Position numbers and translations under genes: made by a program. The notes below the pieces were generated by a model. It did not search any database, was not told the DNA's origin, and saw only the letters and a program-made list of their open reading frames with translations. 64,000 bases of DNA, taken from positions 1 through 64,000 of the forward strand of contig NZ_ANFX01000005.1 of the NCBI RefSeq assembly GCF_000331285.1, read 5' to 3'. Each line of letters starts with the position of its first letter. Position 1 is the stretch's first letter. Shown piece by piece: positions 8,650-54,288 of this stretch. Source of the stretch: Porphyrobacter sp. AAP82. GTDB taxonomy: Bacteria; Pseudomonadota; Alphaproteobacteria; Sphingomonadales; Sphingomonadaceae.

Positions 8650-8783
8650 GGTTTCCGGAAGGCCCGATCCCTCGCTAACCCCCATTTTGTCGTCCCCGAA
8701 GTGGCGTATTAACCAATGTAGCTTCGGCGAATAACCGTCTCGCCGATTGACAGCAAGCCGCTTGGGGCGGATGCTGCACGGCA

Positions 8784-8987
8784 ATGGAAGAACCCGATCG
8801 CCCAAGGCCTGTCGGAGATGCCGCCTCGAGGCTCGCGTCCGAGGACCTCGGCCCCTACTCGCAGGCCGAGCTGGACGAGCGGATCGCGGTGTTGGAGGCG
8901 GAAATCGCGCGGGTTTCAGCCCACCGGGCCAAGGCCGCCGCGCACCGCGCCGCCGCCGACGCGCTGTTCGGGAAGGGGGGTGGATGA
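8784..8987 (+). CDS. DUF1192 small protein
   Basis: A 67-residue protein with the DUF1192 signature: an acidic and proline-containing head (EEPDRPRPVGDAA) followed by a helical segment LDERIAVLEAEIARVSAHRAKAAAHRAAAD split across about residues 30-58. Function is unknown. The family is widespread in alphaproteobacteria as a short coiled-coil protein. It is transcribed toward clpA, 128 bases upstream of it. Confidence 0.8.
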   Translation: MEEPDRPRPVGDAASRLASEDLGPYSQAELDERIAVLEAEIARVSAHRAKAAAHRAAADALFGKGGG

Positions 8988-9115
8988 TCCCCCTTCGCAT
9001 TTCCCTCGTAACTCGCCTTAGGGATTCGCAATTCCCTCTCCCCCACCCATATTGCGCTCGACCGGCTCTCTCCGCCCCCTCGCCACGGGCATCCACCCGC
9101 TGAAAGGCCTCTCCC

Positions 9116-36903: not shown

Positions 36904-37905
36904 CTAGATTTCTCCGCCGGTCAGCCGCTGGCAGAGCAGATCGAGCTGGTCGAGCGTCGTGTAGCGGATCGTGATCGTGCCCTTGCGCGGGTCGCTCTCG
37001 GGCTTGATCTTCACCGACAGCCCGAGGAACTCCTCGAGATGCTGCTGCACCGCGACGATATCGGCGCTTTCGGTGGTGAGGTAGGGCGGCTCGGCCGGGC
37101 CGGGTTCGGGGCGCCGGGCGGGCTTCTTGGTGAGGCTCTCGATATCGCGCACCGAAAGCCCTTCGGCCACCGCGATCGCCGCCAGCTCGCGGGCATCGTC
37201 ACGGCCGATCAGCGGCCGCGCGTGGCCCATGGTCAGCTTGCCTTCCTGGATCAGGTCGAGCACATCGTCAGGCAGCGTCACCAGCCGCATCATGTTGGCG
37301 ACATGGCTGCGCGACTTTTCGACCATCTTGGCGATGTCGACCTGGATCATCCCCTCCTCTTCGGCGAGGCGGTGATAGGCGCGCGCTTCCTCGACCGGAT
37401 TGAGGTCCTCGCGCTGGAGGTTCTCGATCAGCGCGAGCGCCATGACCTCGCGGTCCGACAGGGCGCGGACCAGCGCCGGGATCTCGTGCAGCCGCGCCTT
37501 CTGCGCCGCGCGCCAGCGCCGCTCGCCGGCGACCAGCTGGTAGCCATCGCCTTCGGGATGCGGGCGGACGATGATCGGCTGGATCACCCCGCGCGTGGCG
37601 ATCGAGGCGGCGAGCTCTTCCAGCGCGGCCTCGTCGAAGACCTTGCGCGGGTTGCCCGGGAGCGGCTTGATGCTGGCAAGCGGGAGCATCCGCAAGGGCG
37701 AGGCGCCCGGCAGCGGAGCCTCGGCAGGCGCGCCGGCGCCTGAGGTAGGCGCCGAGGCGATCTCCTCGCGGCGGACGAGCGGCTCCTCGCGGCGGGTCTC
37801 GCCGAGCAAGGCGCCCAACCCCTTGCCCAGGCGACGCGGCCTTTCCGCTCCGTTCGCGCGCGAAAGTGCAGCGATTTCAGAAGTTTGATCAATATTCTCG
37901 GTCAT
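36904..37905 (-). CDS. parB: Chromosome partitioning protein ParB
   Basis: A 333-residue ParB. The N-terminal CTPase region holds box I LPGNPRK and box II GERRWRAAQ (about 114-122) with ALIENLQREDLNPVEEA. The helix-turn-helix that reads parS follows (EEGMIQVDIAKMVEKSRSHVANMMR, about 165-190), and a C-terminal dimerisation domain ends the protein. It binds parS, spreads as a CTP-loaded clamp and loads SMC. Its ATG overlaps the parA stop by four bases. Seven good parS sites lie just upstream, in the 38.8-43.7 kb stretch. Confidence 0.97.
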   Translation of the reverse strand: MTENIDQTSEIAALSRANGAERPRRLGKGLGALLGETRREEPLVRREEIASAPTSGAGAPAEAPLPGASPLRMLPLASIKPLPGNPRKVFDEAALEELAASIATRGVIQPIIVRPHPEGDGYQLVAGERRWRAAQKARLHEIPALVRALSDREVMALALIENLQREDLNPVEEARAYHRLAEEEGMIQVDIAKMVEKSRSHVANMMRLVTLPDDVLDLIQEGKLTMGHARPLIGRDDARELAAIAVAEGLSVRDIESLTKKPARRPEPGPAEPPYLTTESADIVAVQQHLEEFLGLSVKIKPESDPRKGTITIRYTTLDQLDLLCQRLTGGEI

Positions 37906-38678
37906 GCCGCCTGTCTTTCTGCGGGAAATCGCCCGATCAGCTCGCGCGCCAGCGCCATATAGGCGCGGCTGCCGGTGCAGTGCTGGTCATAGATCAGCGC
38001 GGGCAGGCCGTGGCTCGGCGCCTCGGACAGGCGCACGTTGCGCGGGATCACCGTTTCGAACACCAGCTTGCCGAGGCAGTCGCGCACGTCGTCGGAGACC
38101 TGGTCGGTCAGCCGGTTGCGCTTGTCATACATGGTCAGCGCAACGCCGATGATGCCGAGCTGCGGGTTGAACCGCTGCTGCACCTGGTCGACGGTCTGGA
38201 GCAGCTGGCTGAGGCCTTCAAGGGCGAAGAACTCGCATTGCAGCGGCACCAGCAGCGTATCGGCGGCGCACAGGGCGTTCAGCGTCAGCAAGCCGAGCGA
38301 GGGCGGGCAATCGATGAAGCAGATCTCGTGGCCGGTATAGCCGGCGAGCGCGCGGTGCAGCCGGTGGGTGCGCCCCTCGACCGCAACCAGCTCGACCTCG
38401 GCGCCCGACAGGTCGACCGTGGCAGGCACGATGTCGAGCCGCGGGATCGCGGTCGGCACGATCGCCTCGCCCAGCGCCAACTCGTCGACCAGCAGGTCAT
38501 AGCTCGAAATTTCGCGCGCGGCGGCGTCCACCCCGAGGCCGGTCGAGGCATTGCCCTGCGGATCGAGGTCGATCAGCAGCGTGCGCCATCCGGTCGCGGC
38601 CATGGCGGTGGCGATGTTGATGGCGGTGGTGGTCTTGCCCACTCCGCCCTTCTGATTGGCAATCGCGATGGTCAGCAT
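37902..38678 (-). CDS. parA: Chromosome partitioning ATPase ParA
   Basis: A 258-residue ParA/Soj ATPase with the deviant Walker A KGGVGKTTT (about 10-18), IDLDPQGNAS and FIDCPPSLGLL. It binds DNA as an ATP dimer and moves the ParB-parS complex toward the new pole. The ATG at 38678 has AGGA upstream; longer starts would add residues before the Walker A strand. It is followed by parB with a four-base overlap and preceded by rsmG. Confidence 0.97.
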   Translation of the reverse strand: MLTIAIANQKGGVGKTTTAINIATAMAATGWRTLLIDLDPQGNASTGLGVDAAAREISSYDLLVDELALGEAIVPTAIPRLDIVPATVDLSGAEVELVAVEGRTHRLHRALAGYTGHEICFIDCPPSLGLLTLNALCAADTLLVPLQCEFFALEGLSQLLQTVDQVQQRFNPQLGIIGVALTMYDKRNRLTDQVSDDVRDCLGKLVFETVIPRNVRLSEAPSHGLPALIYDQHCTGSRAYMALARELIGRFPAERQAA

Positions 38679-38736
38679 GGTGGTTCCTGTCCTCTTCGCG
38701 CGCCGATTCATGGTGAATCCGCACAGCTTTCGCGCA

Positions 38737-39393
38737 TCAGGCCTTCACGATGATCCCCGCCTCGGGATCGGTCAACGAATGTTTCACGTGAAACATTGCG
38801 CGAATCGAAGGCTTGAGCGCCTCCAATTCCTGCGCTGCCGACCGTCCCTTGGGCAACACGTATCGGGTGGCCCTTGTGGAGAAGGGTGCGGATAGATCGA
38901 GAAGTCTGGGGAGAGGCGCAAAGGCGCGTGCCGAAATGGCGCGCGCGGCGAAGGGCGTGACCTTCTCCAGACGCTGCCCTTCGACTCGGCATTTGGGAAG
39001 ATCGAGCGCTTCGATGGCCCTGTTCAGGAACTCCACCCGCCGCGCACGCGATTCGACCAGCACCACCGGCATGTTGGGGTGAAGCGCGGCTATGACGAGG
39101 CCCGGAAAGCCCGGCCCGCTCCCGAGATCGAGCCACGGGCCGCCCGCGTTCGCTCCAAAAGTTTCTGCTTTGAGCAGAGCTTCGCTTCCACGTGAAACAT
39201 CCACGAGCTGCGCCGAATCGGCGATGTGGCGCTGCCAGATATGCGGCTCGGTCGCCTTGGCGATGAGGTTCTGGCGGCTGTTCTCCGCCAGCACCAGCGC
39301 CGCGAAGGCCTCCAGCCGCGCCATGCCCGCTGCGTCGGTCAGCCCGGCGACATAGGCGCGGGCCTGCTCCTCCGTCGCAATCATGCGGCACAC
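38737..39393 (-). CDS. rsmG: 16S rRNA (guanine527-N7)-methyltransferase
   Basis: A 218-residue RsmG with the SAM motif [11 protein letters not shown] (about 89-99) and [17 protein letters not shown]. It methylates G527 of 16S rRNA. Near the C-terminus residues MFHVKH are encoded by a perfect parS palindrome at 38780-38795, so a centromere site is read as protein here. A weaker half-site lies at 39184. The start overlaps the mnmG stop by 13 bases. A GTG or ATG a few codons inside is possible. Confidence 0.94.
38780..38795. other. parS site 1 (perfect), inside rsmG
   Basis: TGTTTCACGTGAAACA, identical to the conserved bacterial parS palindrome. ParB binds it and nucleates the partition complex. 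It is read in frame as MFHVKH of RsmG. Confidence 0.93.
39184..39199. other. Weak parS-like site, inside rsmG
   Basis: GCTTCCACGTGAAACA differs from consensus at three positions, but one half is intact. It is probably a decayed or low-affinity site. Confidence 0.4.
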
Positions 39394-41231
39394 CTGCGCC
39401 GCGCATGGACCAGCAGCGCCGAGAGCGCCGCCGGCGTCACCCCCGGCACCCGTCCCGCCGCCGCAAGAGTCCCCGGCGCGGCCTTGGACAAGCGCTCGAC
39501 CATCTCGTTGGAGAGGCCCGGCACTTCGCCATAGGGAAAGTCGGCCGGCAGCGGCAGCGCCTCACTCGCGCGCAGATCGCGCAACTCGGCGTCCTGCCGC
39601 GCGAGATAGGGCGCATAGGCGGCGTCCTCGGCCATCTCCCCGGCGAGCAGCGGGTCGAGCGCCGTCACCTCGCCCAGCCAGGGGGCGAGCGCTTCGGGGG
39701 TGACGCCATCATAGCGCAGCCACTCGGCGATGGTCTTTTCCCCATGGTCGCGGCGGACAGGCAGGCCATGATCGGCGAGGGCGCGCGCGTGGACCTTCTC
39801 CGAATGTTTCACGTGAAACATTTCGCGCACCTCTTCACGCCGCTCCCACCAGCGACGACGCTCCTCGCCGATGCACCCCGCTTCGATCCCGAGCCCCGTC
39901 AGGCGCGTCGCGGCGTTGTTGGCGCGCAGGCGCAAGCGGTATTCGGCGCGGGCGGTGAGCATCCGGTAGGGCTCCGAGACGCCCTGCAAGGTGAGATCGT
40001 CAACCATCACCGCGATGTAGGAATTGGCACGATCGAGCCCGGGCGCCGCCTTGCCGAGCGCGGCAGCCGCCGCCTCCAGCCCCGCGACCAAACCCTGCGC
40101 GGCGGCTTCCTCGTAGCCCGTCGTCCCGTTGATCTGCCCTGCGCAATAGAGCCCGGGGATCGCGCGGAGCTGCAAGTCCGGCGTCAGCGCGCGCGGATCG
40201 ATGTGGTCATATTCCACCGCATAGCCCGGCTGCACGATCCGCGCCCGCCCGCACCCCGGCATGGTCCGCACCACCTCTTCCTGCACATCCACCGGAAGCG
40301 AGGTGCTGATGCCGTTGGGGTAAACGAGATGGCTGTCCAGCCCCTCGGGCTCGAGGAACACCTGGTGCCCCTCGCGGTCACCGAAGCGGTGGATCTTGTC
40401 CTCGATCGAGGGGCAATAGCGCGGCCCCGCCGCCGCAATCGCCCCCGAAAACAGCGGCGAGCGGTGGAGGTTGGCGCGGATCGCGTCGTGCCCGGCCTGG
40501 GTGGTGCGGGTAATCGCGCAGAACACCTGCGGGTTCACACGGCGCGGGGTGAGCGGCGACATCGTCCAGCCTTCCCCGTCCGAGGGCTGTTCCTCGAGCA
40601 CCGCCCAGTCGATGGTGCGGCCATCCAGACGCGGCGGCGTGCCGGTCTTGAGGCGGGCCATCGGCAGGTCGGCCCCGCGCAGCTGCCGGGCGAGGCGGTG
40701 CGCGGCATTCTCGCCGATCCGCCCGCCTTCAAAGCGCTCCTCGCCGCGAAACAGGATGCCGCCAAGGAAGGTGCCGGTGCACAGCACGCAATGTTTCACG
40801 TGAAACATTGTGCCGTCGGCGAGCTCCAGCCCCGCCACGCGCCCGCCTTCGAGCACCAGCGCGGCGGCCTCGCCCTGGACCAGCGTGAGGTTCGCCTGCG
40901 CGCGCACCATCGCCTGCACCGCCGCCTTGAAGCGCACCCGGTCGGCCTGCACCCGCGGGCCCCAAACGGCGCTGCCCTTGGAGCGGTTGAGCATCCGGTA
41001 GTGGATCGCTCCCGCATCCGCCGCGCGGGCGATGACACCGTCAAGCGCATCGACCTCGCGCACCAGATGCCCCTTGCCGAGGCCCCCGATCGCCGGATTG
41101 CAGCTCATCGCGCCAATCGCGCCGAGGTCGAAACTCACCAGCGCCGTGCGCGCACCCATCCGCGCCGCCGCGCAGGCAGCCTCCACCCCGGCGTGACCGC
41201 CGCCGATGACGAGGACATCGAAGTTGTGCAT
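39381..41231 (-). CDS. mnmG: tRNA uridine-5-carboxymethylaminomethyl modification enzyme MnmG (GidA)
   Basis: A 616-residue MnmG. FAD motif [12 protein letters not shown] (about 8-19), [21 protein letters not shown], the second conserved block [15 protein letters not shown] and [11 protein letters not shown]. With MnmE it makes cmnm5U34 in tRNAs. Two parS palindromes are read in frame as MFHVKH, once in the beta-strand before [11 protein letters not shown] and once in the C-terminal helical part. The ATG at 41231 is chosen because the FAD strand begins there. It overlaps rsmG by 13 bases. Confidence 0.96.
39805..39820. other. parS site 2 (perfect), inside mnmG 3' half
   Basis: TGTTTCACGTGAAACA, perfect palindrome, read as MFHVKH in the C-terminal part of MnmG. 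Confidence 0.93.
40792..40807. other. parS site 3 (perfect), inside mnmG 5' half
   Basis: TGTTTCACGTGAAACA, perfect palindrome, read as MFHVKH immediately before the [11 protein letters not shown] strand of MnmG. Confidence 0.93.
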
Positions 41232-41297
41232 GGGCGGGCAGATAGGGTCTGCCGGGCGAATCGTCAAAGTGGATTCGCTGGCGAAGCGGGTCGAAAA

Positions 41298-41313
41298 TGT
41301 TTCACGTGGAACA
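41298..41313. other. parS site 4 (one mismatch), mnmG-mnmE gap
   Basis: TGTTTCACGTGGAACA differs from consensus at one base. It lies between the genes, 67 bases before the mnmG start. Confidence 0.88.
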
Positions 41314-41346
41314 TTGCCGGGCACCTGGTGCGCTGCCTCTTCGGGC

Positions 41347-41415
41347 GCACACAAAGACACATTGAGGGTCGTTCTGAGACGCGGCATCGCCCGTCCTCCT
41401 GGGGCCTTTGTGTGC
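41347..41415. repeat. Ten-base inverted repeat in the mnmG-mnmE gap
   Basis: GCACACAAAG (41347-41356) pairs with CTTTGTGTGC (41406-41415), perfectly, with 49 bases between. It lies between parS sites 4 and 5 in the 249-base gap upstream of mnmG. It could be a protein-binding pair or a transcript structure. No further gene is seen in the gap. Confidence 0.5.
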
Positions 41416-41449
41416 TTTTGTGAGAAGCTGCGGCCTAACCTGCAGGCAA

Positions 41450-41465
41450 TGTTTCACGTGAAACA
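41450..41465. other. parS site 5 (perfect), mnmG-mnmE gap
   Basis: TGTTTCACGTGAAACA, perfect palindrome, 15 bases after the mnmE stop. Confidence 0.93.
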
Positions 41466-41480
41466 TTTTCGACCGGTGGC

Positions 41481-42764
41481 TCACTTCCCGACGCAGAAGC
41501 GTCCGAACAGGGTGTCGAGCATGTCTTCGGTGGTCGCGCGGCCGATCAGGCGGTCGAAGGCGAGGCGCGCGCGGCGCAGTTCCTCGGCGACCAGCAGGGG
41601 GTCGGGCAGGACCGTCGCGGCACGCAGCGCCTCCTCGGCTTCGGCAAGCCGCGCATGCTGGCGCGCGTTGAGAGTCGCCTCGCCCGGCTTGGGCAAAGCC
41701 CCGCGCGCAGCCTCGACCAGCGCCTGCTTCAAGGCCCCTACCCCCGCGCCCGTCACCGCCGAAAGCGTGAAGCGCGCACCCGGCTTCGCGGGGAGGCCTT
41801 CGCGGTCGGCCTGGGCGGCGGTCTCCCACGCGCCCGCTGGCCCTTCGCCCTCCGGCCCCAGCCACAGCACCGCGTCGGCGCGCGCCAGCGCATCCAGCGC
41901 CCGCTCGATTCCGATCGCTTCGATCGCGTCCGGAGAGCCCTCCCGCAGCCCCGCCGTGTCGACGAAGGTGAAGGGCACGCCGCCGATCGCGACCGAGCGC
42001 TCGATCACATCGCGCGTCGTCCCCGCGATGGGCGAGGTGATGGCCGCCTCGCTTTCCACCAGCGCGTTGAACAAGGTCGATTTGCCCGCATTGGGCGGTC
42101 CGGCGAGCACCACGCGGAAACCCTCCCCCAGCCTCTCGGAACGCGGGCGGGCAAGCCAATCGGCGAGTTCATCGGCCAGCGCGGCAATGTTCCACGTGAA
42201 ACATTCGGGCAGATCGGCGCTGTCCTCCTCGTCCGAGAAGTCGAGCACACCTTCGACTTCGGCCGATAGCCCGAGCAGCCGGTCGCGCCAGCCCTCGACC
42301 TGCCGCGACAACGCCCCGCCCGCATTGGCGAGGGCAGCGGCGCGCTGCAATTCGGTCTCGGCGGAAAGGAGGTCGGCAAGGCCCTCCGCCTCGGCGAGAT
42401 CGATCCGGCCATTGGCAAAGGCGCGGCGGGTGAACTCACCCGGCTCGGCGCGCCGGGTCCCGCGAAGCGCAGCGAGCGCCCCCTCCACCGCCGCCACCAC
42501 CGCGCGGCCGCCGTGACAGTGAAATTCGGCAAGGTCCTCGCCGGTCGCCGTGTTCGGCCCGGGGAACCACAGCACCAGCGCCTCGTCGAGCAGTGCGCCG
42601 TCGCCAGCGCGCAGCCGTGCCAGCGAGGCACGGCGGGGCTCGGGCGCCCTGCCCGCCAGCGCCAGCAAGGCCCCCCGCGCCGCCGGGCCCGAGACGCGGA
42701 TCACCCCCACGCCCGCCGGCGGCGCGCCGCTCGACAGCGCAAAGATCGTATCCGCAGCGCTCAC
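41481..42764 (-). CDS. mnmE: tRNA uridine modification GTPase MnmE (TrmE)
   Basis: A 427-residue MnmE. The N-terminal formyl-THF-binding domain opens with DTIFALSSGAPPAGVGVIRVSG. The G domain has GPPNAGKST and DTAGLRE, and the protein ends with FCVGK, the conserved C-terminal cysteine motif. It forms the MnmEG complex. The start is probably the GTG at 42764, because family members begin at about that place; an upstream GTG at 42800 would overlap the DUF6489 gene. A one-mismatch parS lies inside the gene at 42188. Confidence 0.93.
   Translation of the reverse strand: MSAADTIFALSSGAPPAGVGVIRVSGPAARGALLALAGRAPEPRRASLARLRAGDGALLDEALVLWFPGPNTATGEDLAEFHCHGGRAVVAAVEGALAALRGTRRAEPGEFTRRAFANGRIDLAEAEGLADLLSAETELQRAAALANAGGALSRQVEGWRDRLLGLSAEVEGVLDFSDEEDSADLPECFTWNIAALADELADWLARPRSERLGEGFRVVLAGPPNAGKSTLFNALVESEAAITSPIAGTTRDVIERSVAIGGVPFTFVDTAGLREGSPDAIEAIGIERALDALARADAVLWLGPEGEGPAGAWETAAQADREGLPAKPGARFTLSAVTGAGVGALKQALVEAARGALPKPGEATLNARQHARLAEAEEALRAATVLPDPLLVAEELRRARLAFDRLIGRATTEDMLDTLFGRFCVGK
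42188..42203. other. parS site 6 (one mismatch), inside mnmE
   Basis: TGTTCCACGTGAAACA, the reverse complement of the variant at 41298. It is read in a different frame, as CFTWNI, in MnmE. Confidence 0.88.
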
Positions 42765-42768
42765 AGCG

Positions 42769-43032
42769 TCAGTCGGAGGACTTTTTCGATCCCGCAGCAC
42801 CCGCCGCCGCCTTCATCGAGCCTTCGACAAAATTCTGGAAGAGCTTCATCCCCATCTGCCCCATCGGCGCCAGCGCACTGGCATATTGCTGGAGCTGGTC
42901 CGGGCTCGAGACACCCTGCATCGCCTTGGTGAGGTTCTCGACATAGACGTTGTTGGCCGCGCTCACATCGGGCAGGCCCATGAAGCTGCGCGCCTCTTCC
43001 GGGGTGCAGTCGATTTCGATGGTGATCTTCAC
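42769..43032 (-). CDS. DUF6489 family small protein
   Basis: An 87-residue protein beginning MKITIEIDCTPEEARSFMGLPDV, the DUF6489 signature, then a helical run with a Met/Gly-rich stretch and a Lys/Ser end. Function unknown. It lies four bases before the mnmE GTG start, so the two are probably cotranscribed. Confidence 0.85.
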   Translation of the reverse strand: MKITIEIDCTPEEARSFMGLPDVSAANNVYVENLTKAMQGVSSPDQLQQYASALAPMGQMGMKLFQNFVEGSMKAAAGAAGSKKSSD

Positions 43033-43125
43033 AGGCGCTGTCTTCCCCTCGTCATCCCTGCTTCATTTGCGCTTGGCAGGGCTGCAAGGCAAGAGATAGA
43101 CCGGCGCTGCGAAGGAGAGACCCCG

Positions 43126-43824
43126 ATGAGCCTCAATGCCACCATCCCCACGCTTGAAGGTGACGCAAGCTTCGGCGCCTATGTCGCGCAGCCCCAGGGC
43201 ATCGCGCGGGCGGCGATCATCGTCATCCAGGAAATCTTCGGGGTGAACCCCGGCATCCGCCAGAAGTGCGACAAGCTGGCGGCCGAGGGCTATCTTGCGG
43301 TCGCGCCCGATCTGTTCTGGCGGATCGAACCGGGCATCACGCTCGATCCCGATGTCGAGCCGGAATTTGGCCGAGCCCTCGGCCTGTTCGGCGAGTTCGA
43401 CCAGGACGCCGGGATCCGCGATATCGAGGCGACCATCCACCACATCCGCCGCACCCTCGGCGTCGCCAAGGTCGGCTGCGTCGGCTACTGCCTCGGCGGG
43501 CGGCTCGCGTTCATGACCGCGGCGCGCACCGATATCGACGCGAGCGTCGGCTATTACGGCGTCGGCATCGACGCGCTGCTCGGCGAGAAGCACGCGATCG
43601 CCCACCCGCTGATGCTCCATATCCCCACCAATGACGGCTTTGTTCCACGTGAAACACAGGCGGCGATGCACGCGGGGCTTGGCGATCACCCCAGGGTCAG
43701 CTTGCACGATTACGAAGGCCTCGACCACGGTTTTGCCACCGAACACGGCAAGCGCCGCAACGAGGAAGCCGCGAACCTTGCCGATGGGCGGACGGCGGCG
43801 TTCTTTGCGGAACACCTCGGGTGA
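43126..43824 (+). CDS. Dienelactone hydrolase family protein
   Basis: A 232-residue alpha/beta hydrolase with the DLH triad Cys122 (GYCLGG), Asp170 (TNDGF) and His201 (LDHGF). It hydrolyses lactones in aromatic degradation or serves as a generic carboxymethylenebutenolidase-like esterase. The ATG at 43126 has AGGAGA upstream. A one-mismatch parS at 43641 is read as VPRETQ just after the catalytic Asp. No aromatic-degradation genes are nearby. Confidence 0.9.
   Translation: MSLNATIPTLEGDASFGAYVAQPQGIARAAIIVIQEIFGVNPGIRQKCDKLAAEGYLAVAPDLFWRIEPGITLDPDVEPEFGRALGLFGEFDQDAGIRDIEATIHHIRRTLGVAKVGCVGYCLGGRLAFMTAARTDIDASVGYYGVGIDALLGEKHAIAHPLMLHIPTNDGFVPRETQAAMHAGLGDHPRVSLHDYEGLDHGFATEHGKRRNEEAANLADGRTAAFFAEHLG
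43641..43656. other. parS site 7 (one mismatch), inside the dienelactone hydrolase gene
   Basis: TGTTCCACGTGAAACA. It is the most distal good copy from parAB and the closest to the probable origin, about 4.6 kb from it. Confidence 0.85.
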
Positions 43825-43951: not shown

Positions 43952-44353
43952 ATGGGGAACGCACAGGCAGGCCTCGCCAAATGGCACGCCTATATGGAGC
44001 ACGGCGGCGATCCCGCGCTGCTTTCCGAGCTGCTGGCTGATGACGCGGTGTTCCACTCGCCCGTGGTGCACACGCCGCAGGTCGGCAAGCCCATCGTCAT
44101 GGCCTATCTGGTCGCCGCCAGCCACACGCTGGGGAACGACAGCTTCCACTATGTCCGCGAGCTGGTGGATGGGGACGAAATGATGCTCGAATTCGTCACC
44201 GAGATGGAGGGCATCACCGTCAACGGGGTCGACATCATCCGCTTCAATGCGGAGGGAAAGATCAGTGATTTCAAAGTTATGGTCCGCCCCTTGAAAGCGA
44301 TCAACAAGGTTTGGGAAATGATGGGCGCGCAGCTTCAGGCGGCGAAGGCTTGA
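43952..44353 (+). CDS. NTF2-like (SnoaL-type) protein
   Basis: A 133-residue cone-shaped NTF2-like fold: LSELLADDAVFHSPVVHTPQVGK near the N-terminus, then MMLEFVTEMEGITVNGVDIIRFNAEGKI split around about 85-115. No catalytic set is clear, so it could be an isomerase, hydrolase or binding protein. GGGAGG upstream fits the ATG at 43952 better than those at 43949 or GTG 43937. Its last 53 bases overlap the convergent BLUF gene. Confidence 0.8.
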   Translation: MGNAQAGLAKWHAYMEHGGDPALLSELLADDAVFHSPVVHTPQVGKPIVMAYLVAASHTLGNDSFHYVRELVDGDEMMLEFVTEMEGITVNGVDIIRFNAEGKISDFKVMVRPLKAINKVWEMMGAQLQAAKA

Positions 44354-44759
44354 GCGTTTGGTGGGCGGCGAACCCGTGCACGAAGAAATCGCGCACCGCC
44401 TCCGCGATTGCCGGGCACATCCGCTCGCCCGCCTCCTCGTGCATCAGCGTCAGCGCCTTGCCGATGTGGTGGTCGTCGAAATAGCGCATCGGCCAGTGGG
44501 GGAAAGTGGCCTCGGGAATCGAGCGCTCGAACAGCACCTCGACCCCGCTGTGACGCATATCGCGGCGGATCGTCTCGAAGGTGGCAAACAGCTTCCAGGT
44601 CGGCCCTTCGAGGATCTGGAGCAGATGCTGCCCGGCCTGGAGCAACACCCCCGTCAGCCCCTTCGCCTCGTTGGCGACCCGCGCGTGATAGACCAGCCGG
44701 AACATCTCGGCCTTGTCGAGCCCGGGTGTGGCGATGCTGCGATAGATGATGCGGCGCAT
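44301..44759 (-). CDS. BLUF-domain blue-light receptor 1
   Basis: A 152-residue protein that is essentially one BLUF domain (about 2-95) plus a helical, proline-containing tail. The flavin-sensing residues are present at family spacing: Tyr6 (IIYRS), Asn30 (RVANEA) and Gln48 (LLQILEG), and a late Trp-x-Met (HWPMRYFD). BLUF proteins bind FAD and switch on blue light; short forms act through partners. ATG at 44759 with a GGGGGAG site. The tail extends over the end of the NTF2-like gene on the other strand. Confidence 0.88.
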   Translation of the reverse strand: MRRIIYRSIATPGLDKAEMFRLVYHARVANEAKGLTGVLLQAGQHLLQILEGPTWKLFATFETIRRDMRHSGVEVLFERSIPEATFPHWPMRYFDDHHIGKALTLMHEEAGERMCPAIAEAVRDFFVHGFAAHQTLKPSPPEAARPSFPKPC

Positions 44760-44839
44760 CACGCTCCCCCTGTTGGTCCGGGGGAGAGAATACCGCATGC
44801 AGCTCTGCCAGCCGCTTGCCCGCGATTAGGGGTTTTACA

Positions 44840-45232
44840 CTAGTTCAGGACCGCGAAGTTGACGATCATCTTGCGCACTTCGGGGTCGAGCGCCCGGGGC
44901 AGATCGCGCTCGAGCATCTCGCGGCGGGCTTCGATGCTTTCGGCGATCAGCACGCGTTTCATCGCCCAGTCGGGGCAGGCGCGCGCAGGGATGGTGCGGC
45001 GGTCGATCACCGAGACCCCGGCGTGGCGCGGGTCGGCGGTGATCGTGTCCATCAGCGCGGCAACCTCGGCCTCCTCGCCTTCGAGCAGTTGCAGGAAGTT
45101 GCGGCCGTTGAACAGGAGCAGCCCGGTGATGCCGCGCGCAGGGTTGTTGCGCGCGCTCGCGGCGAGGATGGCGTCCACCTCCTCGCGCGGCAGGGTCGGC
45201 GCGGTGCTGATGTAGAGATACTGGCTAAGCAC
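44840..45232 (-). CDS. BLUF-domain blue-light receptor 2
   Basis: A 130-residue single BLUF domain with Tyr7 (YLYIS), Asn30 (RNNPARG), Gln48 (FLQLLEG) and the Trp-x-Met (PDWAMK). The C-terminal 35 residues form a short helical cap. The start is a GTG at 45232. It lies upstream of the first BLUF gene on the same strand, 80 bases away, so the two may be cotranscribed. The two differ at most surface positions, pointing to old duplication or separate origins. Confidence 0.88.
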   Translation of the reverse strand: MLSQYLYISTAPTLPREEVDAILAASARNNPARGITGLLLFNGRNFLQLLEGEEAEVAALMDTITADPRHAGVSVIDRRTIPARACPDWAMKRVLIAESIEARREMLERDLPRALDPEVRKMIVNFAVLN

Positions 45233-45277: not shown

Positions 45278-46543
45278 TTACTGGTTCATCGTTGCGAAGA
45301 AATCTTCGTTGGTCTTGGAATCCTTCATCTTGTCGAGCAGGAATTCCATCGCGTCTACGGTGCCCATCTGCATCAGGATGCGGCGCAGCACCCACATCTT
45401 GGAGAGATTGTCCTTCTGGACCAGCAGCTCTTCCTTGCGCGTGCCGGACTTGCCGACATCCAATGCGGGGAAGATGCGCTTGTCCGAAACCTTGCGGTCG
45501 AGCACGATTTCGGAGTTGCCGGTGCCCTTGAACTCTTCGAAGATCACCTCGTCCATGCGGCTGCCGGTGTCGATCAGCGCGGTGGCGATGATCGACAGCG
45601 AGCCGCCTTCCTCGATATTGCGCGCGGCGCCGAAGAAGCGCTTGGGCCGCTGCAATGCATTGGCGTCGACACCGCCGGTCAGCACCTTGCCCGAAGAGGG
45701 CACCACGGTGTTGTAGGCACGGCCCAGGCGCGTGATCGAATCGAGCAGGATCACCACGTCATGCTTGTGTTCGACAAGGCGCTTGGCCTTCTCGATCACC
45801 ATTTCGGCGACCTGCACGTGGCGGTTGGCGGGCTCGTCGAAGGTCGAGGAGATGACCTCGCCCTTCACGCTGCGCTGCATGTCGGTGACTTCCTCGGGGC
45901 GTTCGTCGACCAGGAGGACGATCAGGAACACCTCGGGGTGGTTGTCGGTGATCGCCTTGGCGATGTTCTGGAGCAGCACGGTCTTGCCGGTGCGCGGCGG
46001 GGCGACGATCAGCGCGCGCTGACCCTTGCCCTGCGGCGCGATGATGTCGATCACCCGTGCGCTCTTGTCCTTCACCGTCGGATCGAGCGTGTCGAGCGTC
46101 AGCTTCTGGTCGGGGTAGAGCGGGGTGAGGTTGTCGAAATTGGTGCGCAGGCGGACCGCGTCGGGATCGTCGAAATTGACCTTGGCAAGGCTGGTCAGCG
46201 CGAAATAGCGCTCGCCATCACGCGGCGCGCGGATCTCGCCTTCGACCGTGTCGCCGGTGCGCAGGCCCCAGCGGCGGACCTGGTTGGGCGAGACATAGAT
46301 GTCGTCCGGCCCGGCGAGGTAGTTGGCTTCGGGCGAGCGAAGGAAGCCGAAGCCGTCCTGCAACACCTCGATGGTGCCGATCCCCATGATCTTCTCTTCA
46401 TATTCCTCGTCCTCGGCAAGCTCGCGCAGGATCGAGAAGAGCAGATCCTGCCGGCGCATGGTCGAGGCGCCCTCGACGCCCAATTCCTCCGCCATCGCGA
46501 CCAGTTCGGCCGGGGTCTTTCGCTTGAGGTCTTTCAAATGCAT
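45278..46543 (-). CDS. rho: Transcription termination factor Rho
   Basis: A 421-residue Rho. N-terminal helical and OB-fold RNA-binding domains (about 1-125: [22 protein letters not shown] split, [13 protein letters not shown]), then the ATPase domain with [11 protein letters not shown] (about 175-185), [13 protein letters not shown] and the R-loop/Q-loop regions. Hexameric Rho terminates untranslated transcripts. In alphaproteobacteria rho commonly lies between mnmE and hemE near the origin, as here. Confidence 0.97.
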
Positions 46544-46748
46544 TTTTGTGGTGTTCCGAAAGTCTTGAAGTGGCCGGTGGGTCAGTACCGCCCCTGGCGA
46601 GCGGTGCCCCTTGATGGAGGGGGCTGGGCTTGGAGAAAGCAGACCATAAGGGAGCGCGGGTTGGCGCTCCGATACCGGATAGGTGATCGGGAAATAGAAG
46701 CGCGCGCCGCCGAGGTCAATCGGCGAATGCGCGCCCGCGATTCCCGGC

Positions 46749-47192
46749 TCAGAAGGGCTTGAGGTAGACCAGCAGCACGATCAGGATCAGCAGCACGCCC
46801 GGCACCTCGCCGATCATGCGCAGGGTCTTCTCCGAGAGCGGCCTCTGCCCACGCGCCATCTTCTTGGTCTGGCCGACCAGCCAGCCATGATAGCCGGTCA
46901 GCGCCACCACCAGCGTCAGCTTGGCGTGGAGCCAGCCCGAGGAAAGCCAGCCGCCGCCATAGGCCATCGAGAGCCCCAGCACCCAGACGATGACCAGCGA
47001 CGGGGTGAGGATGATTTTGCGCAGCTTCCCCATCCGCTCGGCCCACTTGGCTTCGCCTAGCGAACCGGGCGCATGGTCGAGCATGTAGATGCACTGGCGC
47101 GGCAGCATGAACAGCCCCGCCATCCAGAACACCATGAAGATCACGTGCCCCGACTTGAGGAACAGGTAGATCGACAAGATCAGTTCCTGCAT
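46749..47192 (-). CDS. hemJ: Protoporphyrinogen oxidase HemJ
   Basis: A 147-residue membrane protein with four hydrophobic helices and the HemJ/UPF0093 signature [18 protein letters not shown] (His16 near the heme site) plus [13 protein letters not shown] and WLHAKLTLV. It oxidises protoporphyrinogen IX in species lacking HemG or HemY. It is downstream of hemE with a four-base gap, which supports the heme role. The 205 bases from here to rho hold no gene I can see. Confidence 0.92.
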
Positions 47193-47196
47193 CGCG

Positions 47197-48213
47197 TCAG
47201 CCCCTTAGCGCTGCAAGCAATTCCTCGACATGCGAAATCGGGGTGAACTGCCCGATCCCGTGGCCGAGGTTGAAGACGTGCGGACGATCCTCGAAGGCGG
47301 CGATGATGGTTTTCACCCGCGCCGCCAAAGCCGGGCCTCCGGCCTCCAGCAGCAGCGGATCGAAATTGCCCTGCACCGGCATCCCCTCGGGCAGCGACTG
47401 GTGCGCCCAGACCGGATCGAGCGTCTCGTCGAGCCCGACCGCGTCCACCCCGGTCTCGCGGGCATAGGCGGGAAGCTTGGCACCCGCGCCCTTGGGAAAG
47501 CCGATCACCGGGGTATCGGGGTGCGATTGCTTGAGCTTGGCGGTGATTGCGGCATTGGGCGCAATCACCCACTTCTCGAACTGGTCCGGGGCAAGGCTGC
47601 CCGCCCACGAATCGAACAGCTGCACGGCTTCCGCCCCCGCATCGATCTGGCCGCGCAGATACGTGACCGAGACCTCGACGATCGCGTCGATGATCGCCTG
47701 CATCCGCGCAGGGTCGCGATAGGCGAGCAGGCGCGCCGGGCCGTGATCCTTGGAGCCCTCGCCCGCGATCATGTAGGTCGCCACCGTCCAGGGGCTCCCC
47801 GCAAAGCCGAGCATGGTCACTTCCCGCCCGATCATGCTGCGGGTCAGGCGCACGGTCTCGTAAACCGGCTCGAACCGCTCGAAGGCGGGGGTGAAGCTGT
47901 CCAGCTCCACCTCCAGCAGCGTCGGCGCAAGATGCGGACCCTCGCCTGCGGCAAAGGTCAGCCCCTGCCCCATCGCGTGCGGCACGATCAGGATGTCGGA
48001 GAACAGGATCGCCCCGTCGAATCCGAAGCGCCGGATCGGCTGGACGGTGATTTCCGCGGCGGCCGCACTGTCATATACGAGCTCGAGAAAGCCGCCCTTC
48101 TCTGCGCGCAACTCCCTGTATTCCGGCAGATAGCGCCCCGCCTGACGCATGAGCCACACGGGGGCGACATCCTGGCGGACACCTTTGAGCGTATCGAGAA
48201 GCGGACCTGGCAT
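47197..48213 (-). CDS. hemE: Uroporphyrinogen decarboxylase
   Basis: A 338-residue HemE. The substrate motif MRQAGRYLPEYR (about 23-34), then FSDILIVPHAMG, GFAGSPWTVATYM and the end GHGIGQFTPISHVEE. It converts uroporphyrinogen III to coproporphyrinogen III. hemE borders the origin in Caulobacter and Rickettsia, and its start faces the 328-base gap here. Confidence 0.96.
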   Translation of the reverse strand: MPGPLLDTLKGVRQDVAPVWLMRQAGRYLPEYRELRAEKGGFLELVYDSAAAAEITVQPIRRFGFDGAILFSDILIVPHAMGQGLTFAAGEGPHLAPTLLEVELDSFTPAFERFEPVYETVRLTRSMIGREVTMLGFAGSPWTVATYMIAGEGSKDHGPARLLAYRDPARMQAIIDAIVEVSVTYLRGQIDAGAEAVQLFDSWAGSLAPDQFEKWVIAPNAAITAKLKQSHPDTPVIGFPKGAGAKLPAYARETGVDAVGLDETLDPVWAHQSLPEGMPVQGNFDPLLLEAGGPALAARVKTIIAAFEDRPHVFNLGHGIGQFTPISHVEELLAALRG

Positions 48214-48541
48214 AGGGTTCCTTAGAGCAAATCAATTCAATTTTAAAAAGGATGGATGGAGTCTGTTGGCCCTGTGGATAGCGGGAATTACCGGCCTCTG
48301 CCGCCTTGCCCCCACATGGCCCACCGGATTCATGCCCCCATCGAATCCGCACGGATTGGACGTCAAGCCAGCTTTATCCTCAGTCTTCACAGCCTGTCGA
48401 CAAAACTTGTCCCGTGTGCGCAAATCGCCAGAGGAAATGCCTGCGAGCGGGCATGAAAATCCCTCCCCTGCTTGTCCGCCAGTCCCTCCCGTGGTTTATG
48501 CGGCGATCTGTTCACAGGGCCAATGTCGAACCGGGGCGCGC
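48214..48541. other. oriC: Probable chromosomal replication origin (oriC) between hemE and ppsR
   Basis: This is the only gap above 300 bases and the location of the origin in Caulobacter. It has an AT-rich stretch (48229-48250, including TTTTAAAAAG), a near-perfect DnaA box TGTGGATAG (48273-48281), another TTATCCTCA (48374-48382), weaker boxes GTCTTCACA (48383-48391) and CTGTTCACA (48508-48516), and three GANTC methylation sites (48259, 48327, 48343). Each box has at least one mismatch. No CtrA box of the TTAA-N7-TTAA form was found. Confidence 0.7.
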
Positions 48542-49387
48542 ATGAACCGACTCAATCTCCACCTCGTATCGGATTCGACCGGCGAGACGCTGGAAATGAT
48601 CGCCAAGGCGGCGCTCGCGCAGTTCGACAACCCGAGCGTGAACCGCCATTTCTGGCCGATGGTCCGCTCGCTCCAGCATATGGACCGGATCGTCCCCGAT
48701 CTCGCCGCGCATCCCGGCCTGGTGCTCTACACGCTGGTCAACCCAGAGACCAGGAAGCGGCTCGAGGAGCATTGCCGCCACCTTGGCCTCCCCGCCGTGC
48801 CGGTGCTCGACCAGGTGACCGCAGCGCTGGAAAGCCAATTGGGCCAGGAAGCCCATGGCCGCCCGGGCCGCCAGCACATGATGGACGAGAACTACTTCCG
48901 CCGCGTCGAGGCGATCCAGTACACGATCGCCCACGATGACGGCCTCGCCCACGAGGAGTGGGAGCAGGCCGATATCGTGCTCGTCGGCGTGTCGCGTTCA
49001 TCCAAGACGCCGACCAGCATCTATCTCGCCAATCGCGGTTTCAAGGTCGCCAATATTCCGCTGGTGGTCGAAAGCCCCCCGCCCGCCACGCTCTACCGGC
49101 TGCGGCACCCGCTGGTGGTGGGGCTGACGACCAGCCCCGAACGGCTGATCCAGATCCGCCGCAACCGGCTCCTCTCCTTGAACGAGGCGACCGAGACGGC
49201 CTATGTCGACAATGACCGGGTCAAGGCCGAGCTGCAATTCGCCCGGCGCATGTTCGGCGACAATGGCTGGCCGGTGATCGACGTCACCCGCCGCTCGATC
49301 GAGGAGACCGCGGCGGCGATCATCCGGCTGGTGCAGGAACGTGACCGCAAGCCGGCGAGCGAGGGCGGGACGGGCAAGCCGATATGA
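48542..49387 (+). CDS. Pyruvate, phosphate dikinase / PEP synthase regulatory protein
   Basis: A 281-residue DUF299 kinase/pyrophosphorylase. It opens HLVSDSTGETLEMIAKA and has the P-loop GVSRSSKTPTSIYLA (about 151-165). It uses ADP to inactivate and Pi to reactivate PPDK or PEP synthase. The homologue starts the genome in Caulobacter, where it flanks the origin. It overlaps maf by four bases (ATGA). Confidence 0.93.
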   Translation: MNRLNLHLVSDSTGETLEMIAKAALAQFDNPSVNRHFWPMVRSLQHMDRIVPDLAAHPGLVLYTLVNPETRKRLEEHCRHLGLPAVPVLDQVTAALESQLGQEAHGRPGRQHMMDENYFRRVEAIQYTIAHDDGLAHEEWEQADIVLVGVSRSSKTPTSIYLANRGFKVANIPLVVESPPPATLYRLRHPLVVGLTTSPERLIQIRRNRLLSLNEATETAYVDNDRVKAELQFARRMFGDNGWPVIDVTRRSIEETAAAIIRLVQERDRKPASEGGTGKPI

Positions 49388-49971
49388 CTCTGATTCTCGC
49401 CAGCAAATCAGCCTCCCGCCGAGCGATGCTCGATGCCGCAGGCGTCGCCTATCACAGCATCCCCGCCGATATCGACGAGCGCGCGGTCGAGGCGGGCCTT
49501 GCGGGTGCGGCTCCCTCCGAGGTCGCCGAGGCTCTGGCGGTGGCCAAGGCGGCGGCGGTCGCCGCGCTTCATCCGGGCGCGCTGGTGCTGGGGAGCGATT
49601 CGCTGGTCGTCTGCAAGGGCCGCCGTTTCGACAAGCCGAAGAGCCGCGATGAGGCTGCCGAGCACCTGCGGTTCTTCTCCGGCGCGGTGATGGAGCTGCA
49701 CTCCGCCGCGGCGCTGGTCAAGGATGGCGGGTGCGAATGGAGCCACGCCGCCCTCGCCCGGCTGCATGTGCGCGAATTGTCGGCGGATTTCATCGAACAT
49801 TACCTCGACCTCGAATGGCCCGCAATCGGCCACACCGTCGGCGCGTTCCGCATCGAGGGGCCGGGGGTGCAGCTGTTCACCGAGATCGAGGGCGACCAGT
49901 TCACGGTGCTCGGGATGCCGCTGCTGCCGCTGCTCGGCGCGCTGCGCGAGGAAGGGGTGCTGCTGGCATGA
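49384..49971 (+). CDS. Maf family nucleotide pyrophosphatase
   Basis: A 195-residue Maf protein: LASKSASRRAMLDAAGV at the start, the SDSLVVCKG strand with the catalytic Asp, KPKSRDEAAEHLRFFSG, and the end with EGDQFTVLGMPLLPLL. Maf enzymes hydrolyse non-canonical or modified nucleoside triphosphates. It overlaps the genes on both sides by four bases (ATGA). Confidence 0.92.
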   Translation: MTLILASKSASRRAMLDAAGVAYHSIPADIDERAVEAGLAGAAPSEVAEALAVAKAAAVAALHPGALVLGSDSLVVCKGRRFDKPKSRDEAAEHLRFFSGAVMELHSAAALVKDGGCEWSHAALARLHVRELSADFIEHYLDLEWPAIGHTVGAFRIEGPGVQLFTEIEGDQFTVLGMPLLPLLGALREEGVLLA

Positions 49972-50837
49972 CCCGGCCCCCCGAAACCCCCTATGCCGAG
50001 GTGATCGGCGATCCGATTGCGCAGTCCAAATCGCCCAAGATCCACGGGTTCTGGCTGGAAAAACTCGGGATCGAGGCCGCTTACCGCGCCTGCCACGTGA
50101 CGCCCGATGCCCTGACCGACTACCTTGCCGAACGCCGCGAAGACCCGCTCTGGCGCGGCTGCAATGTCACCATGCCGCACAAGCAGGCGGTGATGCCGCT
50201 GCTGGACCGCATCGATTCCCCCGCCGACGCGATCGGCGCGGTCAACACGGTTCTGCCGTCGGGCAAGGGCGTTCTGGCAGGCACCAACACCGATGCGGCA
50301 GGCTTCCTCGAACCGCTGGCGAAGGATCTCGCCGAGGCGCATTATTTCCGCATGGCGCGCATCATCGGCACCGGCGGCGCGGCGCGGGCGATCATCAGCG
50401 CGCTGGCGGGCCACGGCTTCACACTGGTCGTCGCGGGCCGCGATCCGGCCAAGGCGTGCGCGCTGCTCGATGAACTCGCGCCCGGGGGCGAACACTACGC
50501 CATCGATCTGGCACATTTCTCTGATCCCACCGACTTCGCCTTCGACGACCGCGAGGGGTGCCTCGATCTCATCGTCAACGCCTCCAGCCTCGGGATGGCG
50601 GGCCAGCCCCCCCTGCCCCTCGACTGGAGCCACGCCCCGCCGCGCGCCATCGCCTATGACATCGTCACCGCCCCGCTCGTCACCCCGCTGCTCGAAACCG
50701 CCAGGGCAGGCGGCCATCGCACCATCGACGGGCTGTCGATGCTGATCGGCCAGGCGGCGACCGCTTTCGAACGATTTTTCGGCGAGGCCCCGCCGCGCGA
50801 ACACGATGCCGAATTGCGAGCTCTCCTGACCCAATGA
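49968..50837 (+). CDS. aroE: Shikimate dehydrogenase
   Basis: A 289-residue AroE. The substrate motif GDPIAQSKSPKIHGFWL (about 15-31), catalytic lysine in NVTMPHKQAV, the NADP loop GTGGAARAI and the end with IDGLSMLIGQAATAFERF. It reduces 3-dehydroshikimate in aromatic amino-acid synthesis. ATGA overlaps on both sides tie it to maf and coaE. Confidence 0.94.
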   Translation: MTRPPETPYAEVIGDPIAQSKSPKIHGFWLEKLGIEAAYRACHVTPDALTDYLAERREDPLWRGCNVTMPHKQAVMPLLDRIDSPADAIGAVNTVLPSGKGVLAGTNTDAAGFLEPLAKDLAEAHYFRMARIIGTGGAARAIISALAGHGFTLVVAGRDPAKACALLDELAPGGEHYAIDLAHFSDPTDFAFDDREGCLDLIVNASSLGMAGQPPLPLDWSHAPPRAIAYDIVTAPLVTPLLETARAGGHRTIDGLSMLIGQAATAFERFFGEAPPREHDAELRALLTQ

Positions 50838-51421
50838 CCTCACCACAAAAAATCATCGGCCTCACCGGAAGCATCGGCATGGGCAAGTCGACCGTCGCAG
50901 GCATGTTCGCCGAGGCGGGGATCCCGGTGTTCGACGCCGATGCCGAGGTGCGCGCGATGCAGGGACCGGGGGGCGAACTCCTTGCGCCCATCGAAGCCGC
51001 CTTCCCCGGATCGACCGGCCCCGCAGGCGTCGACCGCGACCGGCTGGGCCATCAGGTCTTCGCCGACAAGCCCGCCCTCGCCCGGCTCGAAGCCATCGTT
51101 CACCCCGCGGTGGCCGCAAAACGCGCCGCCTTCCTCAAGGCCAATGCCGACAAGCCCGCGGTGGTCTTCGACATCCCGCTGCTGTTCGAACGCGGCGGGC
51201 ACGAGGCGGTCGATCTGGTGGTCGTGGTCTCCGCCCCCGAGGCCGTCCAGCGCGCCCGCGTCCTCGCCCGCCCGGGGATGACCCCGCAGAAGTTCGAGCA
51301 CATCTTCGGCCTGCAACTCCACGACACCGAGAAACGCGCCCGCGCCGACCATGTCATCGACACCGGCACCAGCCTTGCCGAAACCCGCGCCCAGGTGGCC
51401 GCGCTGATTGCTTCACTTTGA
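50834..51421 (+). CDS. coaE: Dephospho-CoA kinase
   Basis: A 195-residue CoaE. Walker A GSIGMGKST (about 12-20), VFDADAEVR, VVFDIPLLFERGG and the CoA-domain end. It phosphorylates dephospho-CoA in the last step of CoA synthesis. It overlaps aroE by four bases; 49 bases then separate it from dnaQ. Confidence 0.94.
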   Translation: MTSPQKIIGLTGSIGMGKSTVAGMFAEAGIPVFDADAEVRAMQGPGGELLAPIEAAFPGSTGPAGVDRDRLGHQVFADKPALARLEAIVHPAVAAKRAAFLKANADKPAVVFDIPLLFERGGHEAVDLVVVVSAPEAVQRARVLARPGMTPQKFEHIFGLQLHDTEKRARADHVIDTGTSLAETRAQVAALIASL

Positions 51422-51470
51422 CGACAAAGCGTGCTTGCAAGACTCGGAAACTGGGAGGATAGTCCTGCAA

Positions 51471-52175
51471 ATGCGTGAGGTCATCTTCGATACCGAAACC
51501 ACCGGGCTCGATCCCAAGACCGGGGACCGCATGGTGGAAATCGGCTGCGTCGAAATGGTCGGCCGGGTCGAGACGGGGCGCACCTTCCACGCCTATTTCA
51601 ACCCCGATCGCGACATGCCGGCCGAGGCAGAGCGGGTCCACGGCCTTTCCGCCGCCTTTCTTTCGGCCAAGCCGCGGTTTGCCGAAACGGCGGACGAACT
51701 GCTCGCGTTCCTCGGCGATTCCAACCTTGTCGCGCATGATGCCGGCTTCGATTTCGGCTTTCTCAATAACGAGCTCGAACGCGCAGGGCTGGCACCGATC
51801 AGCTACGACCGGATGGTCGATACCGTCGCCATCGCGCGCAAGAAACACCCCGGCGCCAAGCTCAGCTTGGATGCGCTGTGCACCCGCTACGGGATCGACC
51901 GGAGCCACCGCGTCAAGCACGGCGCACTGCTCGATGCCGAGCTGCTCGCGCAGGTCTATGTCGAACTGACCGGCGGGCGGCAGATCGGCCTCGGGCTGGC
52001 CGATGCCGCGCCCGATGCGCCCGCCCTCGCCGCGTTCACCCCCGATGCGCCGTGGCACCGTCCGTCTGTGGACCGGACCCGGCGCGAACCCCGCCCCCAT
52101 GTTGCCAGCCCGGAGGAGCTGGAACGCCACCGCGCATTCATCGCGCAGATCAAGGACGCAATCTGGGTTGGTTGA
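51471..52175 (+). CDS. dnaQ: DNA polymerase III epsilon subunit (proofreading exonuclease)
   Basis: A 234-residue DEDDh exonuclease. ExoI IFDTETTGLDP (about 5-15), ExoII VAHDAGFDFGFL, and ExoIII with HRVKHGALLDAELLAQVY, including the catalytic His and Asp. The C-terminal tail past 190 would bind the polymerase alpha subunit. The ATG at 51471 has GGGAGG upstream. The gene closes the origin-side set with coaE, as in Caulobacter. Confidence 0.95.
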   Translation: MREVIFDTETTGLDPKTGDRMVEIGCVEMVGRVETGRTFHAYFNPDRDMPAEAERVHGLSAAFLSAKPRFAETADELLAFLGDSNLVAHDAGFDFGFLNNELERAGLAPISYDRMVDTVAIARKKHPGAKLSLDALCTRYGIDRSHRVKHGALLDAELLAQVYVELTGGRQIGLGLADAAPDAPALAAFTPDAPWHRPSVDRTRREPRPHVASPEELERHRAFIAQIKDAIWVG

Positions 52176-53946: not shown

Positions 53947-54288
53947 GTGGACGCGAGGCTGCCTGCGCACCTCGAAGCCGGCGCCATCATGCGCCTTGCC
54001 GAAAGCGAGGGGGGGTTCGCCACGGTGCTCGCCAAGGGGGAGCATGATGCCGGGACGATCCTTGTGGTAACCCTGTGTCGCGGGAGGGAGGGTATTCTGT
54101 TCGAAAGGATGCCCCAGCGCGACGGATCGCGCAAATTTCTTGCGGTGAAGCGAGAAGACCCTGAGAATCCTCAGGAATTTTCAGAATATCTGGCCCGAAG
54201 GCGGCGTCAGGACAGTGATATGTGGCTAATCGAGGTGGATATCGCGGATCGGGAACGGTTCGTCGCGCGTATGGCCGCCTTAACTTGA
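53947..54288 (+). CDS. DUF1491 family protein
   Basis: A 113-residue protein with the DUF1491 pattern: RLPAHLEAGAIMRLAE near the start, GDAGTILVV-like AGTILVVTLCRGREG, and the end with EYLARRRRQDSDMWLIEVDI. Function unknown; conserved in alphaproteobacteria. It starts with GTG at 53947, two bases after the thioesterase stop. The 187 bases to the next gene show no clear feature. Confidence 0.85.
   Translation: MDARLPAHLEAGAIMRLAESEGGFATVLAKGEHDAGTILVVTLCRGREGILFERMPQRDGSRKFLAVKREDPENPQEFSEYLARRRRQDSDMWLIEVDIADRERFVARMAALT

Follow-up and report, generated by a model that had tools for sequence, protein, structure and literature searches.

The origin of replication of Caulobacter crescentus, Cori, is flanked by hemE and a ppsR-type gene (RP001), carries DnaA boxes and has parABS nearby, and CtrA blocks it through boxes within the origin itself. 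Consensus strings were used here for DnaA, CtrA, KOPS (GGGNAGGG) and parS. In the Sphingomonadaceae an origin beside hemE is predicted for most members in DoriC, and DnaA boxes together with a putative unwinding element have been described for Sphingopyxis granuli TFA (PMC4741004). The predicted origin of Novosphingobium PP1Y is also close to hemE (PMC4059872), and in work on the order as a whole Ori-Finder positions have been used and dnaA is described as not conserved close to ori (PMC8116508).

The DNA analysed here, which we refer to as the window, belongs to Porphyrobacter sp. AAP82, whose 2.9 Mb genome is a draft in 52 contigs. It takes up the first 64,000 bases of contig C5, which has a length of 68,180 bases. 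The original prediction placed a probable oriC in the gap between hemE and ppsR, and these two genes do run divergently from the gap, both scoring over their NCBIfam cut-offs (Table 1). The further claim that no other gap of the window is longer is not established: a crude codon-usage caller ranked it fourth. Of the three longer stretches two contain plausible missed ORFs (44301-44798 and 53947-54288) and the third, 8650-9115, contains mainly short ORFs, such as one of 67 aa at 8784-8987. The ORF at 44301-44798 and its neighbour at 44840-45232, both on the minus strand, resemble BLUF blue-light sensor domains by eye. To the left of the gap mnmE, a ParA-like gene and parB were recognised with NCBIfam models, and rho, mnmG and rsmG by eye from the ORF lists. 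No RNA family match was found up to E = 1 in an Rfam search of 46500-50000.

Table 1. Features in and around the hemE-ppsR gap (positions are those of the window)
Feature	Position	Strand	Remark
parB	36904-37905	-	over NCBIfam cut-off
ParA-like gene	37902-38711	-	under NCBIfam cut-offs
seven parS sites	38780, 39805, 40792, 41298, 41450, 42188, 43641 (span 38780-43656)		0 in 100 shuffles
hemE, left flank of gap	47197-48213	-	TIGR01464, 371.8 bits, over cut-off; start at 48213
hemE-ppsR gap, likely oriC	48214-48541 (328 bp)		DnaA-box and GANTC counts, synteny
AT-rich predicted unwinding region	48218-48258		ranks with the most AT-rich 30-mers of the 64 kb (composition); AT-rich start also in relatives
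GANTC (GAGTC)	48259-48263		between AT-rich stretch and DnaA box 1
conserved GTTGGCCC	48265-48272	+	runs into box 1
DnaA-like box 1, CTATCCACA	48273-48281	-	1 mismatch
GANTC (GATTC)	48327-48331		
imperfect inverted repeat TCGAATCCG/CGGATTGGA	48341-48360		includes GANTC at 48343 (GAATC)
DnaA-like box 2, TTATCCTCA	48374-48382	+	1 mismatch
weak DnaA-like box, TTGTCGACA	48395-48403	-	
CCGTGGTTTAT block	48489-48499	+	224 bp from 48265
weak DnaA-like box, CTGTTCACA	48508-48516	+	CTGTCCACA in many relatives
ppsR, right flank of gap	48542-49387	+	NF003742, 337.1 bits, over cut-off; ATG at 48542
maf, aroE, coaE, dnaQ, downstream of ppsR	49384-52175	+	maf and aroE just or clearly under curated NCBIfam cut-offs

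The gap resembles Cori in its hemE and ppsR-type flanks, its DnaA boxes, its several GANTC sites (those of Cori are reported in PMC3973325) and the proximity of parABS; it is unlike Cori in that TTAAN7TTAA or TTAACCAT CtrA boxes are not present above chance, and in that dnaA is on a different contig, C29, from the hemE-ppsR gap. With the predicted hemE-type origins of the Sphingomonadaceae it shares the place beside hemE and the DnaA boxes, and with that of Sphingopyxis also the gene order and the putative unwinding element; PP1Y, as described, has a dnaA gene near its predicted origin (PMC4059872), whereas here dnaA is on a separate contig. The 182 distinct gaps compared here go beyond those predictions: part of the family has a CCGTGGTTTAT block at a fixed spacing, every gap of the family has GANTC, and one genus is without ppsR. 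Among the open-licence literature matches listed, no title or abstract deals with GANTC or with spacing in sphingomonad origins. An oriC on the hemE side is already known as a prediction in relatives, and what is added here, as read from sequence comparison, is the rigid internal spacing, the near absence of CtrA sites and the presence of GANTC in every closely related gap compared.

Within the gap the AT-rich stretch that had been pointed out is borne out by a ranking of 30-mers across the whole window: the GC content of the gap is 0.57 as against 0.68 for the 64 kb, and the twelve AT-richest 30-mers of the whole 64 kb start at 48217-48229, all of them in the gap. Four DnaA-box-like motifs had been proposed, a number that stands if weak ones are counted, but only two (48273 on the minus strand and 48374 on the plus strand) are at one mismatch to TTATCCACA; 1 in 1000 dinucleotide shuffles of the gap has as many. 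The weaker boxes of the gap have two mismatches to TTWTNCACA, those at 48395 (minus) and 48508 (plus) among them, and no perfect TTATCCACA is present in the gap of the window. The three GANTC sites said to fall within 90 bases do so, at 48259, 48327 and 48343, together spanning 89 bases, and this count taken alone is not above chance, as 143 of 1000 shuffles reach three. In the inverted repeat 48341-48360 the majority letters of a 78-row alignment read GATTC, a further GANTC, at the place of GATTG in the window. Across the genome of AAP82 perfect TTATCCACA occurs four times, as against 12 for the pattern reversed, and strong DnaA boxes may be avoided in this genome.

The basal unwinding system that includes the DnaA-trio is described (PMC8287927) with an AT-rich region adjoining a DnaA box, as is found here; the window differs in that NAN triplets next to box 1, within 16 bp of the box, form no run longer than a single triplet, by a scoring that is our own and not the threshold of that paper. 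From the same scan 35 of 185 gaps were dropped as no box was recognised in them; of the 124 family gaps that remained, 25 have a run of at least three. In families f5, f6 and f8 TAG or TTG repeats are visible by eye at this place in several gaps.

The arrangement is conserved well beyond AAP82. In 77 of 80 loci hemE faces ppsR, the three remaining contigs ending 31-373 bp upstream of ppsR. In the order 178 of 197 genomes have ppsR, and of the 177 besides AAP82 itself 89 were read, all 89 with hemE across the gap; at the level of the class hemE is opposite ppsR in 26 of the 27 genomes read, these being the best-scoring 27 of 80 genomes with a match, of which three belong to the order. The 80-locus set and the order-genome set overlap, and counts of distinct gaps were computed separately. 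The family of the window is f1, and the 80-locus set is counted with it, some of its members being titled only Sphingomonadales or Alphaproteobacteria, so that a few may belong elsewhere; counts over 77 gaps leave out the three loci without hemE on the contig, and the enrichment counts by family group omit one 976-bp family gap (L204) of 59.

Across the 77 gaps DnaA-like boxes (TTATCCACA with up to two mismatches) stand at 14.7 per kb compared with 1.6 per kb in the flanks, with 384 observed where 59 are expected from shuffles, a count that 0 of 50 shuffles reach, and the enrichment is present in each of four family groups. GANTC is at 10.3 per kb in the same gaps and 1.9 per kb in the flanks (270 observed, 105 expected, again with 0 of 50 shuffles reaching the count). 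In one genus, g12, no match to ppsR was found in any of 17 genomes, all of which retain the order hemE-gap-maf, with a gap of 298-347 bp that carries one to three boxes at up to one mismatch and three to nine GANTC; the gap is therefore not kept for ppsR alone. ppsR was also without a match in the one sampled genome of g35. In another genome, G184 (locus L238), no ppsR or maf match was found within 4 kb beside hemE, and the long AT-rich region there contains at least six perfect TTATCCACA by eye; this locus was left out of the hemE-maf comparison.

The inside of the gap has a rigid layout. The CCGTGGTTTAT block is found at up to one mismatch in 112 of 185 gaps. Both it and the GTTGGCCCTGTGGA core at box 1 are present in 105 distinct gaps, and in 103 of these they are 219-225 bp apart; over this stretch the mean ungapped identity is 0.64 among the 26 gaps that share the commonest spacing. 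The next gene starts 16 to 150 bp beyond the block, counted over distinct gaps with gene starts extrapolated from alignments. A DnaA-like box follows 7-9 bp after the block in 102 of the 112, by the listed patterns; the other ten comprise three in which the gap ends first, six with a variant and one (L213) with the block elsewhere. The block is not at this place, at up to two mismatches, in 30 gaps of other families, and it is missing also from some gaps of the window's own family. From the constant spacing between box 1 and the block, combined with the variable distance to the next gene, we infer that this stretch may be organised as a single nucleoprotein complex spanning about 21 turns. Exact copies of CCGTGGTTTAT in the AAP82 genome number two, the second of which (G000:C24:68758-68768) is about 0.3 kb from a contig end.

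In Erythrobacter NAP1, which is a single contig, GGGNAGGG is mostly on the minus strand in nine of ten 20-kb samples to the left of the gap, the remaining one having none, and mostly on the plus strand in nine of ten to the right, the remaining one being a tie; within 100 kb the counts are 1+/10- on the left and 9+/3- on the right, with the switch between +3 and +8 kb. The sampled GC skew of NAP1 is best or nearly best separated with an origin placed -17 to +123 kb from the gap, and its local cumulative minimum is 47 kb off the gap. In a 200-kb stretch of KMU-140 the cumulative minimum falls 2.5 kb from the gap, and GGGNAGGG to the right of the gap is mixed (5+/6-). Averaged over 10 kb either side of the loci, GC skew gives too weak a signal to place an origin. 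The strand polarity of GGGNAGGG switches within 10 kb of the gap in NAP1, is mixed in KMU-140 and shows no clean switch at the gap in the 68-kb contig of AAP82 (left 5+/14-, right 1+/4-), one of the 52 of the draft. In the window parAB and the parS sites lie 4.6-11.3 kb from the gap; several of the parS sites are inside ORFs of the rsmG-mnmG-mnmE stretch, where they are translated as peptides such as MFHVKH.

Could the true origin be at another place, such as next to dnaA, where many bacteria have theirs? The genome is a draft without a clean polarity switch at the gap in its own contig, and PP1Y has a predicted origin described as near hemE and also near a dnaA gene (PMC4059872), but the GGGNAGGG switch of NAP1 and the 3.5 kb around the dnaA of AAP82, in which no DnaA box at one mismatch was found, make this very improbable. 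It would seem extremely improbable that the gap is merely the shared regulatory region of hemE and ppsR, with the conserved blocks as promoter elements: whilst the flanking genes are divergent and divergent promoters can be conserved, the gap persists in the 17 of 17 genomes without a ppsR match, the length of the array is constant as its end moves between 16 and 150 bp from the next gene, and each of the four family groups shows an enrichment of DnaA boxes. A scan of 48000-48700 for promoters and terminators was empty, which says little as only E. coli-type sigma-70 promoters were sought and 0.1 would be expected.

The hemE-ppsR gap is very probably the chromosomal replication origin, oriC, and the original prediction is supported in this by the synteny, the enrichment of boxes over shuffles and flanks, the AT-rich stretch, the neighbouring parAB and parS, the polarity switch in NAP1, the gaps that persist without ppsR and the lack of a one-mismatch box in the 3.5 kb around dnaA. 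The poor match of the boxes in the window, none of them a perfect TTATCCACA, the NAN run of one and the weak loci-averaged GC skew count against it, as do the GGGNAGGG strands in the AAP82 contig and on the right side of KMU-140 and the distant GC-skew minimum of NAP1. The predicted target of DnaA is an array about 240 bp in length, in which most boxes are weak. DnaA on its two end boxes, which point in opposite directions, and on the weak boxes that lie between would form one complex over about 21 helical turns. This complex would melt the duplex at about 48218-48258, next to hemE, for helicase loading, and ParB on the parS cluster would then separate the copied origins.

CtrA boxes of the Caulobacter type had been described as not obvious, and this holds over 182 distinct gaps, in none of which TTAACCAT occurs and in only one of which (family gap L200) TTAAN7TTAA is perfect; the gap of the window has one TTAAN7TTAA at one mismatch, at 48232 within the AT-rich stretch, and none better. 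CtrA sites at one mismatch number 11 in the 77 gaps as against 6.9 expected, and no family group shows a clear enrichment of CtrA-type sites. Such sites are detected where they are present, with perfect TTAAN7TTAA in four of 27 class regions and TTAACCAT in 12 of the 22 promoter regions recognised upstream of ccrM in the order, that of AAP82 being without it. Judged by these motifs, CtrA is not expected to act directly at the gap.

All 151 distinct gaps that were counted with the family of the window contain GANTC. In the 60-bp predicted opening region it is present in 62 of 78, 47 of 59 and 11 of 17 gaps of the family sets, where shuffles give 13, 9 and 3, and in other families in 6 of 17 (f5), 5 of 9 (f2,3,4,6,7) and 1 of 5 (f8), where shuffles give about 1, about 1 and 0.3. 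The site shifts its place among opening regions, and 31 of 142 distinct family regions have none; another GANTC is present in 43 of the 74 regions without the usual GAGTC-type site, as against 12 of the 68 with it (Fisher p 9e-7, uncorrected for kinship). Over the whole gap GANTC is not enriched in f8 (4 observed, 6 expected) or in f3,4,6,7 (12 and 12). In f5 54 are observed with 25 expected, and two genomes account for 26 of these; the gaps L176 and L177 have 13 GANTC each in 457 bp, other f5 gaps that were read having 0-4.

The RAMA domain of CcrM type (PF18755) is present in 80 of 80 genomes searched, out of a list of 87. PF18284 was rejected as a marker of CcrM, as among 14 controls it matches E. 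coli only, and PF18755, which matches Caulobacter only, was used instead. The CcrM-like protein of AAP82 scores 598 bits with NF050803, under the model cut-off of 830, and GcrA is represented in this genome by two partial matches, on contigs C42 and C51. Of 27 ccrM promoter regions CTTGAC was recognised in 22, the other five being dropped from the counts; 15 of the 22 have two GANTC and 11 have a TGTGGATA or TGTGGACA box. In the ccrM promoter region of AAP82 itself (L245:1100-1160, contig C38) a TTGAC element is accompanied by two GANTC that lie about 11 bp apart, and directly behind these is a DnaA box, TGTGGATAA. This box is one of the four perfect TTATCCACA of the genome and stands before or just inside the reading frame depending on the start codon.

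The GANTC sites of the gap would be methylated by the cell's own CcrM-like enzyme, and oriC might additionally be timed by it, with full methylation of the GANTC in the opening region easing melting, hemimethylated new copies resisting it and the role of CtrA being replaced. Such timing would suit a family in which all 151 distinct gaps carry GANTC, with 270 where 105 are expected in the 77 gaps, and in which the site is above shuffles in the opening region and turns over there (43 of 74 compared with 12 of 68); it would also suit the RAMA domain in 80 of 80 genomes, the two partial GcrA matches and the near absence of CtrA sites. GcrA-dependent transcription of hemE could, however, also retain GANTC, 31 of 142 distinct family opening regions are without it, and the gaps of f8 and of f3,4,6,7 are not enriched despite the RAMA domain in those genomes. 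Furthermore, deletion of ccrM in Caulobacter, whose origin has several GANTC, is reported to leave a DNA-content profile like that of wild type, with control of initiation intact (PMC3973325). In view of this result and of the unenriched families the methylation clock is held here as an idea, and a rather unlikely one. It is distinctly unlikely that the origin switch of the Sphingomonadaceae has moved from CtrA to methylation in a wider sense, with a CcrM site kept by turnover in the melting DNA, DnaA at the ccrM promoter behind a GANTC pair and a DnaA-CcrM clock licensing one opening of oriC per cycle.

For Porphyrobacter sp. AAP82 the likely origin has been located in a draft genome, and the family gains a precise map of it, with the 300 bp that would be needed, the place at which it would open and a CCGTGGTTTAT block awaiting its partner. 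With CtrA sites nearly absent and GANTC universal in the family, what limits initiation in alphaproteobacteria without CtrA boxes in oriC would become a question for the mutation of sites.
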